DNA of 64,000 nt from an uncultured Sulfuricurvum sp. GTDB taxonomy: Bacteria > Campylobacterota > Campylobacteria > Campylobacterales > Sulfurimonadaceae. Below are positions 12,510-19,748 of the stretch, piece by piece. Below the pieces are notes generated by a model that did not search any database, had not been told where the DNA came from, and worked only from the letters and a program-made list of their open reading frames with translations. The position numbers and the translations under genes are program-made. Each line of letters opens with the position of its first letter. The first letter of the stretch is position 1. The stretch lies in the NCBI GenBank assembly GCA_903844635.1, contig CAIMUF010000077.1:1-64000 (forward strand), read 5' to 3'.

Positions 12510-13472
12510 CTATTCCCGTTTAGCATCGATTTGGCAACACAATTCTACAGATGCTATCCGAAAAGCAATCGAGTTTTGAAAGATAAGCGGATGAGCGTAT
12601 TGACACGTTACAATTCCTTCACAGGGCGAAAGCATTTTTTCGAGTTTCTTGCCACTCAATGCATCCATAATCACCCCTACAACTTCACCTTTTTTAATGG
12701 CTGTACCACAACGTACTTTGGAAATAAAAATTCCTGCACGTGATGCTTTGACTATTGTTATACGATTAGGATCCAAAATATTACTTTTATGTCCTTCAAA
12801 AACATGAAAGTCAAGGATATCACGTTTTGAGAGAAATCTCACGATTGCGGTATGAACTTGATCCGTATCATTTTGATCAATGGATCCATTTTTACCAAAA
12901 ACAATCGAAAAAGCTTTCGTTTCCCACAATTGCCAGTTATACTGAAGCATAGCGGTCTCAACAGGTTCATGAGGACGGTAATGGATAAAACCCATCCCTA
13001 AATCTTTGACACATTCTAAATCTTCATAACCGCTTTGAATGAGCTTTACATACGGAAGACACATTCCCTGATCACGTCTACCTTCTAAAATAATCCCATA
13101 ATCATACCCTTTGAGTGTCTCAAAAAGCCGTGATGCGATGCGTTGAGTCGTTTCACCCTGTGCATATCCTGGGAACATCATATTGAGATCTGTTTTATCG
13201 AGAGGCCAGTTTTTTTCACCCATATTAAGAGCATACGCATTAACGGCAGGAATAACGAGAATTCGTCCGCTGATCTTCCCCTCTTCTTCCTTAATACGTA
13301 AATACTCAACCAATCCGGATGCAACATAAAGCTGATTAATATGATCACCGCTCATAGCACCGACGATGGCGATAGAAGGACCTTCTGTGTTTTCTTCACC
13401 AAATAAAAAGCCCTCAATTCTTAACGGTGCTCTGTTGGGAGATTCAAGACTTACTATATCAAAACGCTTCAT
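12510..13472 (-). CDS. Aspartoacylase/AstE-like pseudoenzyme (zinc site lost)
   Basis: A 320-residue protein clearly homologous to its upstream neighbour and to the succinylglutamate desuccinylase/aspartoacylase (M14-like) family. At the zinc motif the neighbour has HGDE, but this protein has S41-G-D-H44. At the third ligand the neighbour has DIHSS, but this one has ILEGR. The catalytic Glu position (VVEMG) is IVFGK and the substrate Arg in DLNR is DLNM. It should therefore be catalytically dead, perhaps a binding or regulatory partner of the active paralog. The C-terminal beta-rich part (GVIMDALSGKK...SPCEGIV) is kept. It is the last gene of a four-gene operon and overlaps the previous gene by 4 bases. 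Confidence 0.85.
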   Translation of the reverse strand: MKRFDIVSLESPNRAPLRIEGFLFGEENTEGPSIAIVGAMSGDHINQLYVASGLVEYLRIKEEEGKISGRILVIPAVNAYALNMGEKNWPLDKTDLNMMFPGYAQGETTQRIASRLFETLKGYDYGIILEGRRDQGMCLPYVKLIQSGYEDLECVKDLGMGFIHYRPHEPVETAMLQYNWQLWETKAFSIVFGKNGSIDQNDTDQVHTAIVRFLSKRDILDFHVFEGHKSNILDPNRITIVKASRAGIFISKVRCGTAIKKGEVVGVIMDALSGKKLEKMLSPCEGIVTCQYAHPLIFQNSIAFRIASVELCCQIDAKRE

Positions 13473-14425
13473 TGACTGTCTCCATTGGTTTTGCCAAAAA
13501 TCCGTCCAAGTAATGAACCTTCATATACGATGGGATAAGCTCGAATGGTAAAGAGCATTCCACTAATGGGTGCAATCACTTCATCCATTACTTCTCCACT
13601 CAATGCACTTACAATATGTCCAACAACAGAACCTTTTTCAATAACCTGACAATGCTCGATTGCAGGAACAAACAATCCTGGACACGCCGCATTAAGATAG
13701 GCTACTTCACCGACATGCGATTGAATTGGCATGCGCACATCAAGTGGCTCAATATCCAATATCCCCTCATGGGACATAAGATTAAGGAGTCCGTCAAGTA
13801 ATTGGTGACCGTACGCTTTACCAAGACGCATCCCAACACCCATCTCAACCACCAGCGTTTTGGTTCCAATCGTATTCATAGCATGAGCAAACGTAGATTC
13901 GAGAACGGTTACCGCATCATGAACCCAAACAAAATCGATATTAAGTAAATTAGCTAAAGGAACGAGTATCTCTTCTTGTGATTTTGCAATACGTACCTGA
14001 GGGATTTCACGTAAAAATACATTACTTGAATGAATATCGATTGCAAAATCGCTTCCCTTCATGATATTAACGACTCCGTCTGCAATTTGTGCAGGAAGAA
14101 AATCATTTTTACTACCCGGAAAAATTCGATTGAGATCCACATCATAAAAGGGGATAGAACGGGTAATACTATCGATACCCAACGAGTTAATTGCAGGATA
14201 AATATCGATTATACCTCGGATTTTATCAGGATTGTTGCGCAACCACTGACCCAATAAAAAACATACATACTGCCCTTCAAGCTCATCTCCATGAATACCG
14301 CTCACGATGGAAATACGTTTTATACCCTCTTCTTTTTTAGGTGCGTAACGGCACCGCTGAATTCGAAATGACTCTCCAACAGGAAGTTCTATCGTAATAA
14401 CTTCTTCGATCAAACCCATACTCAT
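13469..14425 (-). CDS. Succinylglutamate desuccinylase/aspartoacylase-family zinc hydrolase
   Basis: A 318-residue zinc-dependent amidohydrolase or carboxypeptidase-like enzyme. Zinc ligands are visible as H45 and E48 in SGIHGDELEG and H132 in DIHSS. E194 in VVEMGVG is the expected catalytic glutamate and DLNR (98-101) the carboxylate-binding motif. The C-terminal region (GHIVSALSGEV...APISGML) resembles a lipoyl-like barrel found in this family. The substrate is unknown. Its operon partners, an ATP-grasp protein and an alpha-E protein, suggest it acts on an amide-linked amino acid or peptide product. It shares 4-base overlaps with genes on both sides. Confidence 0.88.
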   Translation of the reverse strand: MSMGLIEEVITIELPVGESFRIQRCRYAPKKEEGIKRISIVSGIHGDELEGQYVCFLLGQWLRNNPDKIRGIIDIYPAINSLGIDSITRSIPFYDVDLNRIFPGSKNDFLPAQIADGVVNIMKGSDFAIDIHSSNVFLREIPQVRIAKSQEEILVPLANLLNIDFVWVHDAVTVLESTFAHAMNTIGTKTLVVEMGVGMRLGKAYGHQLLDGLLNLMSHEGILDIEPLDVRMPIQSHVGEVAYLNAACPGLFVPAIEHCQVIEKGSVVGHIVSALSGEVMDEVIAPISGMLFTIRAYPIVYEGSLLGRIFGKTNGDSQ

Positions 14426-15129
14426 CCTTGCAATTGTGACGCTTCCACAGTATATTCAACACATCCATTGACTTGAATAACCCGAGAAATAACCCCATTA
14501 ACCGCTTCAATTGCTTTAGGAATATCCGATGACGTAATTTTTAATGGTTGATATTGACGGTTTAGTCGTCTGGCTGTTACATTCATTGATTCAAGTTCAG
14601 CATTAACAAGATCAATGCCATCATAGAGTCTTAAAATCAAATCAAATCGTTCAATCTGCTGACCTAAACGGATAAAATGATACGCCTTAGGACGTCCCAA
14701 TTCCGATGAAAAAATACCCAAAATAAGAGCAAAATCATCAATCATCTCTTCTAGAATAGTAGGACTAACAGCACTGTCTCGCCCGGATACAATGTGGTTG
14801 AAAATTTTATTGAGAGTAGAAAAGCCTCGTTCATCAAGCAAATGACGTGTTTCGATTGCATTTTCCCTAGCCCATGTAATAATCAATTCGATACTTGCCC
14901 CATGATCGCCATAAATCCCTTGTTTCAGAAAATCGAGAGCATTGCTATACTGAATCTCAACACCCAAATTTGCATAGAGTTTACGTCCATCATCCATATC
15001 ACGATCGATGACATAATCGTAACTGTTGACAAGTTCACGTAAAAGGGTTTCAGCACGCTGAACATAGCGCCCAAACCAATAGAGTCTTTGAGCTGTATTA
15101 ACGGATATAGCCACACCATTCGTCATCAT
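14422..15129 (-). CDS. Alpha-E domain protein
   Basis: An all-helical protein of about 235 residues of the alpha-E family (COG2307/DUF403), recognised by the motif RLYWFGRYVQRAETLLREL near the N-terminus. These proteins are almost always paired with a circularly permuted ATP-grasp protein, as here. The function is unproven; a role in amide-bond formation has been proposed from genomics. The start at 15129 gives an ATGA overlap with the upstream gene and is preferred to an ATG 15 bases earlier. Confidence 0.88.
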   Translation of the reverse strand: MMTNGVAISVNTAQRLYWFGRYVQRAETLLRELVNSYDYVIDRDMDDGRKLYANLGVEIQYSNALDFLKQGIYGDHGASIELIITWARENAIETRHLLDERGFSTLNKIFNHIVSGRDSAVSPTILEEMIDDFALILGIFSSELGRPKAYHFIRLGQQIERFDLILRLYDGIDLVNAELESMNVTARRLNRQYQPLKITSSDIPKAIEAVNGVISRVIQVNGCVEYTVEASQLQG

Positions 15130-16490
15130 AATTCTACCACCCATGTATCTTTAAATCCGCCGCCTTGAGACGAATTGACGAGGTAATTGCCCTCTTCCAT
15201 CGCATAGCGGGTTAATCCGCCCATGCTCACACTTACTTCTTCTCCATAAATAACATATGCACGTAGATCTGCTTTTCTAGGAAGAATACCTTCTTCCAAC
15301 ATACATGGCAAATCATAAAATTCAATGACCTCTTGAGCGATAAACCGACGAGGATTTTCTAGAATCATTTCTATGATATTAGCACGTTCATCGGGTGTCA
15401 AACGATTACCAAATAGCACGCCATAACCGCCTGCTTCCGCCACGTCTTTTATAACCAATTTATCAATATTTGCCAATACATATTCACGATCTTTTTCATA
15501 ATAAGGGAGATATGTCGGTGCATTTTTGAGCAATGGTTCTTCATCCAAATAATACTTTACCATTTGTGGAACAAAATAATAAATACCTTTATCATCCGCA
15601 ACACCGTTTCCAATACTGTTCATGATAGCAACATTACCTGCTCGATAAACGCTTGCAAGATGTGGAACTCCAATCAAGCTCTCTTTATCAAATTCTTCAG
15701 GATCTAAAAAATCATCGTCAAGTCGACGATATATCGCTCCAACACGTTTACGCTCGCCATTATAAACACACAAGAACACTTCTTCATTTTCAACGATCAA
15801 ATCTTCACCAAGGGCAAGTGTCGCACCTGTAATTTTTGCCAAATAGCTGTGCTCATAATAAGCAGAATTATATCGTCCTGGAGTAAGAATGACATTGAGG
15901 CCACCCGTATTGACATAATCCATTGCAGCTTTAAGCTCATCGCCATATTGTTTGATTTTCGAAATCTTCATCGATTCAAAAAATTCAGGATAGGTGTGCC
16001 GAAATGCACGGCGGATGGTAAGCGGATAACTGACTCCACTAGGCACACGCAGATTGTCTTCAAGGATAACCCATTCACCACTCACGCTGTCTTTGACCAA
16101 ATCAATTCCACTTATATGGGTTCGAATACCTTTAGAAGGGACTACCCCCATAAAACTAGGAAGAAAGCCAACGGCAGAATCAATGTATTCTCTAGGAACA
16201 ATGCCATCTTTTACAATACGCTGCTCGCCATAAATATCATTTAAAAAAGCATTTAATGCTTTGACGCGCTGAATAATGCCTGCTTCAAGATGATCAAACT
16301 CTTTTTTTGGAATGATACGGGGGATCATATCAAAAGGGAATGATCTCTCAATAAAACTACCTTCTTTAAAAAGGTTAAAGTTAACCGCATTAGCCTCTAG
16401 AAAATCTTTAAATTCAGGGATTTTACTTTTGTCGATACTTTCAAAAATATCGTAAAACTTTTGTAGCTCTGCACTCACTGGCTCAATCAT
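15126..16490 (-). CDS. Circularly permuted ATP-grasp protein (COG2308 type)
   Basis: A 454-residue member of the circularly permuted ATP-grasp family. Recognisable segments are GVVPSKGIRTHISGIDLV, WVILEDNLRVPSGVSY, the VIKDVAEAGGYGVLFG loop and the C-terminal SSQGGGFKDTWVVE. Related enzymes are predicted to ligate a carboxylate to an amine using ATP; no member's reaction can be deduced from this sequence. The ATG at 16490 follows AAGGGG by 5 bases and is preferred to a GTG two codons earlier. It is the first gene of the operon that continues with alpha-E and two AstE-like genes. Confidence 0.9.
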   Translation of the reverse strand: MIEPVSAELQKFYDIFESIDKSKIPEFKDFLEANAVNFNLFKEGSFIERSFPFDMIPRIIPKKEFDHLEAGIIQRVKALNAFLNDIYGEQRIVKDGIVPREYIDSAVGFLPSFMGVVPSKGIRTHISGIDLVKDSVSGEWVILEDNLRVPSGVSYPLTIRRAFRHTYPEFFESMKISKIKQYGDELKAAMDYVNTGGLNVILTPGRYNSAYYEHSYLAKITGATLALGEDLIVENEEVFLCVYNGERKRVGAIYRRLDDDFLDPEEFDKESLIGVPHLASVYRAGNVAIMNSIGNGVADDKGIYYFVPQMVKYYLDEEPLLKNAPTYLPYYEKDREYVLANIDKLVIKDVAEAGGYGVLFGNRLTPDERANIIEMILENPRRFIAQEVIEFYDLPCMLEEGILPRKADLRAYVIYGEEVSVSMGGLTRYAMEEGNYLVNSSQGGGFKDTWVVEL

Positions 16491-16660
16491 GAACACCCCT
16501 TGTAAAATAGTGGACTGCCTTATGATATCCTAAAGTAATCTCAAGGGTTGCTTAAAAAAAAAGCAATTTTGATTTTTAAATGAAAATGAGGAAAAAAAAG
16601 GAAAAAAGAACTCACATCAAGCCACACAGGACATGTGTTTGATACTATGAGCAGGATTAC

Positions 16661-18304
16661 TTATTCTGTTTTGAATTGACGCAGTTGGTCGTTAAGTGCT
16701 AAAGAGGTTTGCGTGAGTTCATTCATCTCACCATTAATCATTTCTACAGATTCAATCGCACCGTTAAGACTTTGATCCATTCGATTGATTTCTCGAATAA
16801 TATGCTCGACACTCGCCGTAGTTGTGCCTAGTGTTTGAAGCGTTCTATCCATTGCAATATCCGTTTTATTCATCGTAAGAACCGTTTGATCAATCTGATG
16901 TTCAACGTCAGAGGATACGCTATTTAGGGTTTTAATATTTTGCGCGTTACGGTTCATTTTATCGCTTGCGTCTCCAATAGACTGGACGATTACACTAATA
17001 GTAGAATTAATTTCCGTTAAACTTTTTTGTGTACGTTCAGCTAGTTTTCGCACTTCATCTGCAACTACTGCAAATCCTCGTCCATGTTCACCTGCTCGCG
17101 CAGCTTCGATTGCCGCATTTAGTGCTAGCAAATTGGTTTGATCCGCAATGTCTCCAATCACAATTAGAACACCCTTGATTTGTGCAGCATCCGAATTAAG
17201 CTGATTTAAGTCTTCTACCAAAGAGGCTTCCATCTCAGCAGCATGGCTAATTTTTTCAATCATGACACTGACACTCTGATTTGAGCGATTCAAATCATCT
17301 TGAGCACGCTCAATTTCTGATTTAACTTCATCTGCTTCACGAATCATTGCTTGAATTAACTGATTAATCTGATCCCCATTTTGTGAGGCTAAACGCATAT
17401 CATTGGAATTGCTGCGCAAATTTTCAACCATAACAAAAAAGTTGTTCTGAATTTTATCCGCTACTTCACTGTTGAGGTGTGAGTTATGTTTAGAACTGTG
17501 CAATACGCCTTTCGTAGAAGCAATCATTCTGCCTATACTTTGGAATATTTTTCCAATCTCATCATCACCTTTACGTGTATTAATAAAAGTAAAATCATGC
17601 TCTTCATCAACATAGGTAATAGTCTCTTGCAGTGAACGTATAGACTTTTGAATCATCGTAACAATCATCAGACTCAAGATTACAATCACACCAACAAATA
17701 GAAAACTTACTACAATAAGCGTATTTTGATATGAACTGAGTGTTCCATCAAATGAGACCAAATTTTCATCAAGTTTTTTATTTGAAAATGCAGTAAGTGC
17801 TGAAAGCTCATCTTTGGTTTTTACGGCCACCGAGTTAAATGAATCAACTGCATCAACACGATCTTCAAGCACACTTGCATCATCGGTAAACGTCTCGATC
17901 ATCGATCCGCCCATAGTATTCATACTTTTTAAACGAGTACGAATATTATCGATGATAGGTTTGAGTTCTCCCATCCCGTCATGTTTCGTAAAGCCATCAA
18001 GCTCTTTCATATCACTATCAAGTTTTTCTTTAATGACACCCACGGATTTTTCATAATCCGATTCAAGTGCCATTTGGGATGCTGAAGCAGTGAGTAAAAT
18101 ATTTTGCATTTGAGCCAAATTACTCGCAATATCGTTCGATACAATGATCAATCGAAGCTCACGATCTTTGAAACTGTTAAAACTTTTTTTTGATGATGAT
18201 AATGCGCTAATACTTACAATACTAATGATCACCAAGACTATGACACTTAGTGCCACAATGAGCCAAATTTTGGCTCGTATACTCATCTGCTCAAACATAC
18301 CCAT
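16661..18304 (-). CDS. Methyl-accepting chemotaxis protein with periplasmic sensor
   Basis: A 547-residue chemoreceptor. An N-terminal helix (about 10-30) and a second helix near 195-215 enclose a periplasmic helical-bundle sensor of about 160 residues. The cytoplasmic part contains the signalling hairpin with [22 protein letters not shown] and [20 protein letters not shown]. The ligand is unknown. It lies 16 bases downstream of the broken DUF3373 porin gene, so both may be co-transcribed. Confidence 0.93.
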
Positions 18305-18320: not shown

Positions 18321-19748
18321 TTAATAGCTAACGTTAAAAAGCAAATAGTAGTTCTTTAATTTATCAAGTTCTGAACCATAGCCAGGTGATGTTAATGCAG
18401 TTGGTGCACCGATTTGCATACCGCTTCCACTGTAATCGTAATCGATCATCTGAGCACCTACACGCAAATGCGCATAACGATTAATGGGTTGAATGTAATA
18501 CGCTTCGATAGCATCCCCGCGAGTTGCGAGTTTATTGGTCACGTCATTCGAGCCTTGAGTAAAGCCAAACCAGTTTTGAGAACCGTGATTGTATTCAAGT
18601 CCAATACGTGGATTGTTTAAGATATCACTATTAAAGGTATAACGTCCACCAAGCCAGTAAGCATGACCTGTTTTATCATCTGTACTAGCAGTATTGGCTG
18701 TAGCAGCATTTGTTAAAAGTCCAAAATTCATCCCATTGTATAAACCTGTCATACCATTAGGTGATGCTACAGAAACCGCATAGTGTGCAAATAAATCAAG
18801 ATTTGTATCAGCAAGATTAGTAAATTCCATCATTGCTGTATACAAAGTTACATCACCAATATTGGCATTAACAGGAGTATTTGAAACCATATCTGTAGCT
18901 TTTACCATACTCACTTGAACCAATGATCCTGGAATGCCAAGACCGAAATCGAAAAATGCTCCCATAACCGTTGCATCTTCGATACTACCTGCACCACTGC
19001 CAATATATGTAGGCGCCTGCACACTTCCAGTCGTATCCTGATACCCTTTGCCATATCCAAATCGTAATGCTGCTTCAGGGATACCTGTGAGTTTTTGAAG
19101 TCCTAGCGTAGCTACTACACCATCCGCTCCGCCATCAAAACTGAGTGCTGAATAGGTTGATTTACGAACCGTGTTGTCTTTAAACTGATGAGATGGACCA
19201 TCCGAGCTTGGCTGACGACCGATGGTCAATGCCAAAGGAACTTCACCTTTTAGTACCGTCCAATCTACATACGCACGATCGACAAAGAGAGAGCTGTCGC
19301 TAGGACGGCGACCCTGCATCGGATCCATTGAAGAGTAAGGGTATACGGAACTGTCAGCCCAGTTTTTATACATTGCCAATCGCCCTGTAAACTTCATATC
19401 ATCGGTAATATCCGATGACATAGTGAGACGTAAACGGTTTGACCAAATATCGCCGTCAGAACTTTCTGAACCATCCGCCGTAGTACGTTTGAACGAATCA
19501 ACACGAGTTCTGAAATCTACACCTCAGTTGATTTTATTCACCATAGTTGCCGTTTCGACTTTATCGACTCGTTCTTCGAGTTCATCTACACGAACCGTTT
19601 GTTGTTTTGCGACTTGTTCATTTTGAGCTTTTTGCAATGCTTCAATTTTACTTTTCAGTTCATCGATTTGCGCCTGAACAGAATTATCAGCTGCATACGA
19701 GCTAACAACAAGAGATGCAAGAGCACTGAGTATAATTGTTTTTTTCAT
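18321..19748 (-). pseudogene. DUF3373-type outer-membrane porin, interrupted by one in-frame TGA
   Basis: An outer-membrane beta-barrel protein of 475 codons typical of Campylobacterota. The first part (to 19524) has a signal peptide ending SSYAA and a short coiled coil (IDELKSKIEALQKAQ). After one TGA at 19524-19526 the same frame runs on without another stop as GVDFRTRVDSFKRTT and then the barrel, ending in aromatic Tyr (LLFNVSY). Homologs as I recall them have Trp at the stop position (K.NW..DFRTR), so a TGG to TGA change is the simplest reading. This is a nonsense mutation or a base error. TGA is a normal stop elsewhere here, so recoding is unlikely. Confidence 0.8.

Follow-up and report, generated by a model that had tools for sequence, protein, structure and literature searches.

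We have examined here a four-gene operon in a 64,000-nucleotide stretch of contig CAIMUF010000077.1 from an uncultured Sulfuricurvum sp. (the whole stretch is referred to below as the window), and our data indicate that two of its genes, AST1 and AST2, encode an apparently active zinc amidohydrolase and a dead copy of it. We therefore read AST1/AST2 as a predicted two-subunit amidohydrolase that would act on an amide conjugate and free its amine or amino acid, a conjugate that is probably made in the window's organism by the other two gene products, a circularly permuted ATP-grasp ligase (CP-ATP-grasp) and a helical Alpha-E protein. An initial annotation of this DNA had described the operon and proposed a make-and-trim pathway; the observation is confirmed, and the interpretation is partly supported and extended. 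The window is part of a 2.67 Mb draft genome; judged by its ATP-grasp, the nearest relatives are metagenome-assembled genomes of Sulfuricurvum. The genes are, in operon order:

15126..16490, minus strand: CP-ATP-grasp ligase (CP_ATPgrasp_2), 454 residues, assigned by PF14403, PF04174 and a phmmer match to 3n6x
14422..15129, minus strand: Alpha-E helical protein, 235 residues, assigned by PF04168
13469..14425, minus strand: AST1, AstE/DoeB-like zinc amidohydrolase, predicted active, 318 residues, assigned by PF24827 and its residues
12510..13472, minus strand: AST2, AST1 paralog without the zinc site, predicted pseudoenzyme partner, 320 residues, assigned by PF24827, its residues and an AlphaFold2 (AF2) model

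AST1 has a complete AstE/AspA family site (H45xxE48, D97, N99-R100, H132 and E194), containing the zinc ligands and catalytic glutamate that characterize the zinc hydrolases of this family. His45, Glu48, Asn99, Arg100 and His132 are invariant in 59/59 AST1 homologs, and Glu194 is kept in all 57 homologs that reach it, the other two rows being gapped there. The same residue series, HEDNRHE, is present in 33/33 further loci, a count in which a few genomes appear twice. Neither zinc histidine, and so not the zinc-ligand set, is found in any of the 57 + 33 AST2 homologs. The window AST2 is without both zinc histidines and the catalytic glutamate, its homologs are usually without the glutamates, and in Campylobacterota the substrate-binding arginine has been lost as well. 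Judged by these residues, AST2 would be a member of the AstE/AspA fold that is not a zinc enzyme, and the description of the two genes in the initial annotation as an active zinc amidohydrolase and its dead paralog is upheld.

The signs are that AST2 is a maintained pseudoenzyme rather than a decaying gene, because it retains invariant motifs of its own (for example GETTQRI), is under purifying selection and preserves the DoeB fold. Within Sulfuricurvum its nonsynonymous divergence (dN) is 0.09-0.20 with synonymous divergence (dS) saturated at >1, as crudely estimated by NG86. The AF2 model of AST2 has a predicted local distance difference test score (pLDDT) of 88.9 and matches DoeB (6twm) with an E-value of 8.8e-22 and CphZ (8ein/8eip) with an E-value of 1.8e-19. 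These two proteins, the nearest solved relatives of AST2 by fold, are both amide hydrolases of nitrogen-rich compounds. A literature search returned nothing on aspartoacylase-type pseudoenzymes, COG2307/COG2308 or Rv2409c-Rv2411c, and a mention of AstE neighbors in Iyer 2009 is possible.

Calling the two proteins AstE-like is correct at the level of the family, since PF24827 (cut-off 25) matches AST1 at 65.3 bits and AST2 at 45.9 bits, but neither is AstE itself. The AstE of arginine breakdown was considered and rejected, as neither protein gives any match to the equivalog TIGR03242, and a role confined to arginine breakdown, which the initial annotation had raised as a contrary possibility, is not borne out. 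Both also fall short of DoeB/EutE, the TIGR02994 scores being 43.7 bits for AST1 and 45.3 bits for AST2 against an equivalog cut-off of 402.7.

In a tree built together with generic AstE-like proteins, AST1 forms one clade (99/94) and AST2 another (100/100), each dividing into a Campylobacterota part and a Clostridia/Adlercreutzia part. Because both are single clades that share this division, the loss of the zinc site predates the Campylobacterota/Clostridia split. The trees indicate a single origin for the active/dead pair, followed by joint inheritance; AST1 and AST2 may be sister groups, although the deep branches do not place them firmly. The ATP-grasp tree shows the same Campylobacterota/Clostridia split, and only 6 changes, which we read as mostly losses, are needed to account on it for the presence and absence of the AST pair.

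Scanning species genomes with the window ATP-grasp gave 80 loci (numbered here with the prefix L). As these had been selected by their similarity to that protein, independent profile counts were made in 121 evenly drawn Campylobacterota genomes and in 245 Clostridia genomes, each sample including one center genome known beforehand to be positive. A CP-ATP-grasp is present in 6 of the 121 Campylobacterota genomes, with AST2 adjoining the stand-alone copy in 6/6, and a full-length CP-ATP-grasp in 5 of the 245 Clostridia, with AST1 and AST2 adjacent in 5/5. The initial annotation had entertained the possibility that the AstE-like genes are missing beside the ligase pair in most relatives; they accompany it in every carrier of both samples. 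Among 99 Coriobacteriia genomes the only match is the center genome itself, Adlercreutzia. The order ATP-grasp, Alpha-E, AST1, AST2 is found in most Campylobacterota loci and, with a transglutaminase optionally inserted before AST1, is conserved over three phyla (Campylobacterota, Clostridia and Adlercreutzia), so the arrangement is not due to chance and the set extends, as had been proposed, far outside close relatives. Two metagenome records probably are mis-binned or misnamed: L056, titled Desulfosporosinus, falls with Campylobacterota, and L074, titled gamma-proteobacterium, with Clostridia. Plasmids yielded only generic AstE proteins, at most about 27% identical among the matches listed, and no AST pair; the single plasmid CP-ATP-grasp locus inspected (Hymenobacter) has ATP-grasp, Alpha-E and transglutaminase genes without AST.

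There is no transglutaminase gene in the window operon, and the initial annotation had the hydrolases standing in the transglutaminase's place. This part of the interpretation does not hold. A transglutaminase-sized gene lies between Alpha-E and AST1 in four Clostridia loci (L072, L074, L075 and L077), in Adlercreutzia (L078) and in three Campylobacterota loci (L026, L027 and L115), identified as a transglutaminase by Pfam for L072 and L027 and by BLAST for others. The AST pair is therefore an addition and not a replacement, and the operon is a variation, by that addition, on a known predicted amidoligase module.

The pair is also found apart from the ligase. Of 207 genomes in the family to which one Clostridia genome (G313) belongs, 22 have AST2, and in 13 Lachnospiraceae among those fetched AST1-AST2 is preceded by genes for a class-III aminotransferase and a regulator of the PucR type, in most cases with an amino-acid ABC transporter (SBP_bac_3) as well. 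A PotABCD-like polyamine transporter is found at L129 and L136, and the L129 PotA passes TIGR01187. Among the aminotransferases, the three tested (L106, L126 and L129) score above the gamma-aminobutyrate (GABA) transaminase equivalog cut-off of TIGR00700, and the remainder are 82-95% identical to that of L106 where shown. Full-length CP-ATP-grasp is absent from 19/20 AST-bearing Lachnospiraceae genomes tested and from all 13 of the GABA-transaminase-linked ones. In these Lachnospiraceae the catalytic residues of AST1 are retained and the histidines of AST2 are absent, as elsewhere. Since the pair stays together with the same residue pattern when no ligase is present, it is a functional unit, and the setting suggests an ability to act in the catabolism of amines or amino acids. 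The GABA-transaminase-linked copies group, along with a single unlinked copy, in one small clade (97/89) nested among ligase-linked copies, and because they fall in a single clade one recruitment event is the best reading. The proposed make-and-trim scheme is thus still plausible, but its trimming half is better described as a release enzyme that is able to stand alone in an amine or GABA catabolic setting.

The four genes are a single translation unit, as first annotated: a reading-frame check finds a 4-base ATGA overlap at every junction between 12510 and 16490. In related loci this overlap recurs at 29/55 AST1-AST2, 29/75 ATP-grasp-Alpha-E and 14/51 Alpha-E-AST1 junctions. The ligase ATG at 16490 is preceded by an AGGGG-type ribosome-binding site, and the ATG start of Alpha-E is preferred because it yields the 4-base overlap; the longer starts given by the ORF caller (GTG at 16496 for the ligase, 15144 for Alpha-E) appear less likely. 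Scanning the window for sigma-54 sites gave 26 matches against 29 expected and none ahead of the operon, and we claim no promoter because the sigma-70 promoter and terminator scans were no better than shuffles.

The ligase and Alpha-E proteins are, as initially recognized, a known pair, with profile scores well over the cut-offs: the ligase reaches 462.8 bits against PF14403 (cut-off 32, covering profile positions 1-374 of 374) and 399 bits against PF04174 (cut-off 23.1), and Alpha-E 71.1 bits against PF04168 (cut-off 20.8). Only circularly permuted ATP-grasp models match the window ligase, placing it outside the RimK type. It aligns over its full length with 3n6x (phmmer E-value 1.5e-115), a structure deposited as 'putative glutathionylspermidine synthase', and the two share the conserved ATP-grasp stretches LVxK..GGYG, PRxxDLR and VNSSQGGGxKDTW. 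The AF2 model of Alpha-E (pLDDT 90) is all-helical; compared with the PDB it gives a best Foldseek E-value of 1.0 and VIA-align Z-scores up to 9.9 to helical bundles only. These matches are uninformative, and we do not claim a new fold. The Sulfuricurvum Alpha-E has VQRAE in the first helix where most relatives carry YxER. The window protein keeps an ER at residues 160-161 (IERFD), of which Glu160 is invariant; which ER is meant by Pfam is not stated.

We give slightly less than an even chance to a make-and-release cycle, in which the products of the operon would form and later break an amide conjugate of a small amine or amino acid; we hold the active/dead pairing of AST1 and AST2, as predicted from their residues, with greater confidence than this. 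In such a cycle the CP-ATP-grasp, held by or working with Alpha-E, would use ATP to activate a carboxylate and join it to an amine, chemistry suggested by the family and modeled on glutathionylspermidine synthetase, a structural relative of CP-ATP-grasp. AST1, from the DoeB/CphZ branch of the AstE/AspA family, would then cleave the amide or a derivative of it, and AST2 may serve AST1 as an obligate subunit without catalytic activity of its own, shaping the substrate pocket, the oligomer or a contact with the ligase. We are more doubtful of the fullest version of this proposal, in which AST1/AST2 would be an undescribed obligate active/pseudoenzyme aspartoacylase heteromer that operates with CP-ATP-grasp/Alpha-E in an amine (polyamine or omega-amino acid) conjugation-release cycle of Campylobacterota and gut anaerobes, and whose release half has been recruited to GABA/polyamine catabolism in Lachnospiraceae.

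Several observations weigh against the make-and-release cycle. The AST pair is missing from eleven Campylobacterota loci that have ATP-grasp and Alpha-E, and neither the rest of those genomes nor the genome of L073 yielded a true AST2, so the ligase does not need the hydrolase in order to work. The ligation step is an assumption, as we know of no activity for any CP-ATP-grasp/Alpha-E protein. The link to GABA transaminase is a single evolutionary event, confined to one clade, and the window's genome contains no GABA transaminase equivalog (best score 174 bits against 506.65). GABA catabolism via this transaminase, which we considered as the role of the AST pair in the window's organism, is ruled out by that absence.

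Alternatively, ATP-grasp/Alpha-E might put a peptide or amino acid onto a protein or secreted polymer, with AST1/AST2 stripping the tag. We regard this as unlikely, although it parallels the action of RimB on the RimK product and the Anbu/transglutaminase proposal (PMC5666114), RimK has one AstE-like gene and a RimB-type protease as neighbors on plasmids of Acaryochloris and Vibrio, and a second module of the ligase family is present in the same genome. However, we see no tag protein or Anbu-type protease in the operon, and the ligase-less genomes keep the AST pair beside small-molecule uptake and transaminase genes, which indicates a small molecule. Somewhat less likely again is a purely catabolic unit in which the ligase conjugates an imported amine, as in the gamma-glutamylation of the Puu putrescine pathway, and AST1/AST2 release the end product as a nitrogen source. 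The GABA transaminase, PucR regulator and polyamine or amino-acid ABC transporter adjoining the pair in Lachnospiraceae would suit it, as would the NtrC control of the canonical cluster (PMC5491218) and the presence, close to the operon of two Clostridia (L072 4679-5695 and L110 2271-3140), of a gene from the PuuD-like C26 gamma-glutamyl-GABA hydrolase family, but the window operon has no amine oxidase, transaminase or transporter gene and its genome is without the transaminase equivalog. It is improbable that AST1/AST2 are an unrelated deacylase pair that is simply co-transcribed with ATP-grasp/Alpha-E. The occurrence of each pair without the other, in the 19/20 Lachnospiraceae genomes and the eleven Campylobacterota loci, is what such independence would produce; against it, 11/11 carriers in the two samples have the AST pair, the gene order is conserved across phyla, and the AST and ATP-grasp trees share the Campylobacterota/Clostridia split.

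The make-and-release cycle would bear on a widespread module, long called DUF403/404/407, whose product is to our knowledge not known. A hydrolase that is tied to this module and also stands by itself beside GABA transaminase and polyamine/amino-acid uptake genes offers a concrete hint as to what class of compound the substrate is, and a simple biochemical way in through the action of AST1 plus AST2 on amine conjugates. Within the aspartoacylase family, a conserved active/dead pair would represent a new type of enzyme assembly.

The genome of the window also has a canonical version of the module on another contig:

C43:32221-39104 (L116 4222-11105): transglutaminase-DUF2126 (1124 residues), CP-ATP-grasp/Alpha-E fusion (863 residues) and transglutaminase (319 residues)

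In L009 and L028 the canonical module is the immediate upstream neighbor of the four-gene operon, and in L032, L044, L113 and L115 it is found directly downstream on the opposite strand; given this adjacency, the two modules may cooperate. The published context of the canonical cluster is a nitrogen theme: it is NtrC-activated, under nitrogen limitation, in Burkholderia cenocepacia (PMC5491218), and in marine metagenomes its domains vary together with those of urea metabolism (PMC3597751). Just upstream of the C43 module are genes for a BtrH_N/DUF4872 protein and then a ketosynthase (L116 552-2659), perhaps a separate biosynthetic cluster.

Directly upstream of the operon in the window is a gene that is probably a separate unit and whose functional link to the operon is uncertain:

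16661..18304, minus strand: methyl-accepting chemotaxis protein (PF00015, PF02203)

Methyl-accepting chemotaxis genes also lie upstream of the operon in L027 (5782-6897) and L113 (15021-16922), and one in L124 (5469-7487) falls between GABA transaminase and AST1; they might sense the substrate or be there by chance. Upstream of the window's chemoreceptor gene, at 18321-19421, is a DUF3373 protein, matched by its profile from position 16 and apparently unrelated to the operon.

One of the closest known systems is the module of CP-ATP-grasp, Alpha-E and transglutaminase (Anbu) that was predicted in Iyer et al. 2009, as cited in PMC5666114. The ligase family and Alpha-E are common to both, and C43 holds a canonical second copy, whereas the window operon instead carries AST1/AST2, without the transglutaminase and without an Anbu (NTN-hydrolase) gene, for which the rest of the genome was not searched. 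DoeB/EutE, the N-acetyl-diaminobutyrate deacetylase (6twm), belongs to the zinc amidohydrolase family, is the closest NCBIfam model for AST1 and AST2 and has the fold that the AST2 model matches best, yet AST1 scores far under its equivalog cut-off. DoeB acts in ectoine breakdown, and we know of no dead partner for it. CphZ, an AstE-type family member that hydrolyzes the dipeptide from cyanophycin, is a precedent for acting on an ATP-grasp product. Cyanophycin is made by CphA, an ATP-grasp ligase, and CphZ is a single gene; the partner ligase in the window is by contrast circularly permuted and comes with Alpha-E. The RimK-RimB(-AstE-like) and Rlo systems also place an ATP-grasp ligase next to hydrolases, but they differ from the window in having a RimK-type ATP-grasp, an aspartic (retropepsin-like) protease and a single AstE-like gene; RimK with its AstE-like gene is a second precedent for the pairing of ligase and hydrolase. 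Finally, glutathionylspermidine synthetase/amidase and the Puu pathway conjugate an amine as an amide and then hydrolyze it, much as in the cycle proposed here, and the annotation of 3n6x provides a link to the former. The amidase folds of these systems differ from the AST family, and their likeness to the window operon is one of chemistry and not of sequence membership.

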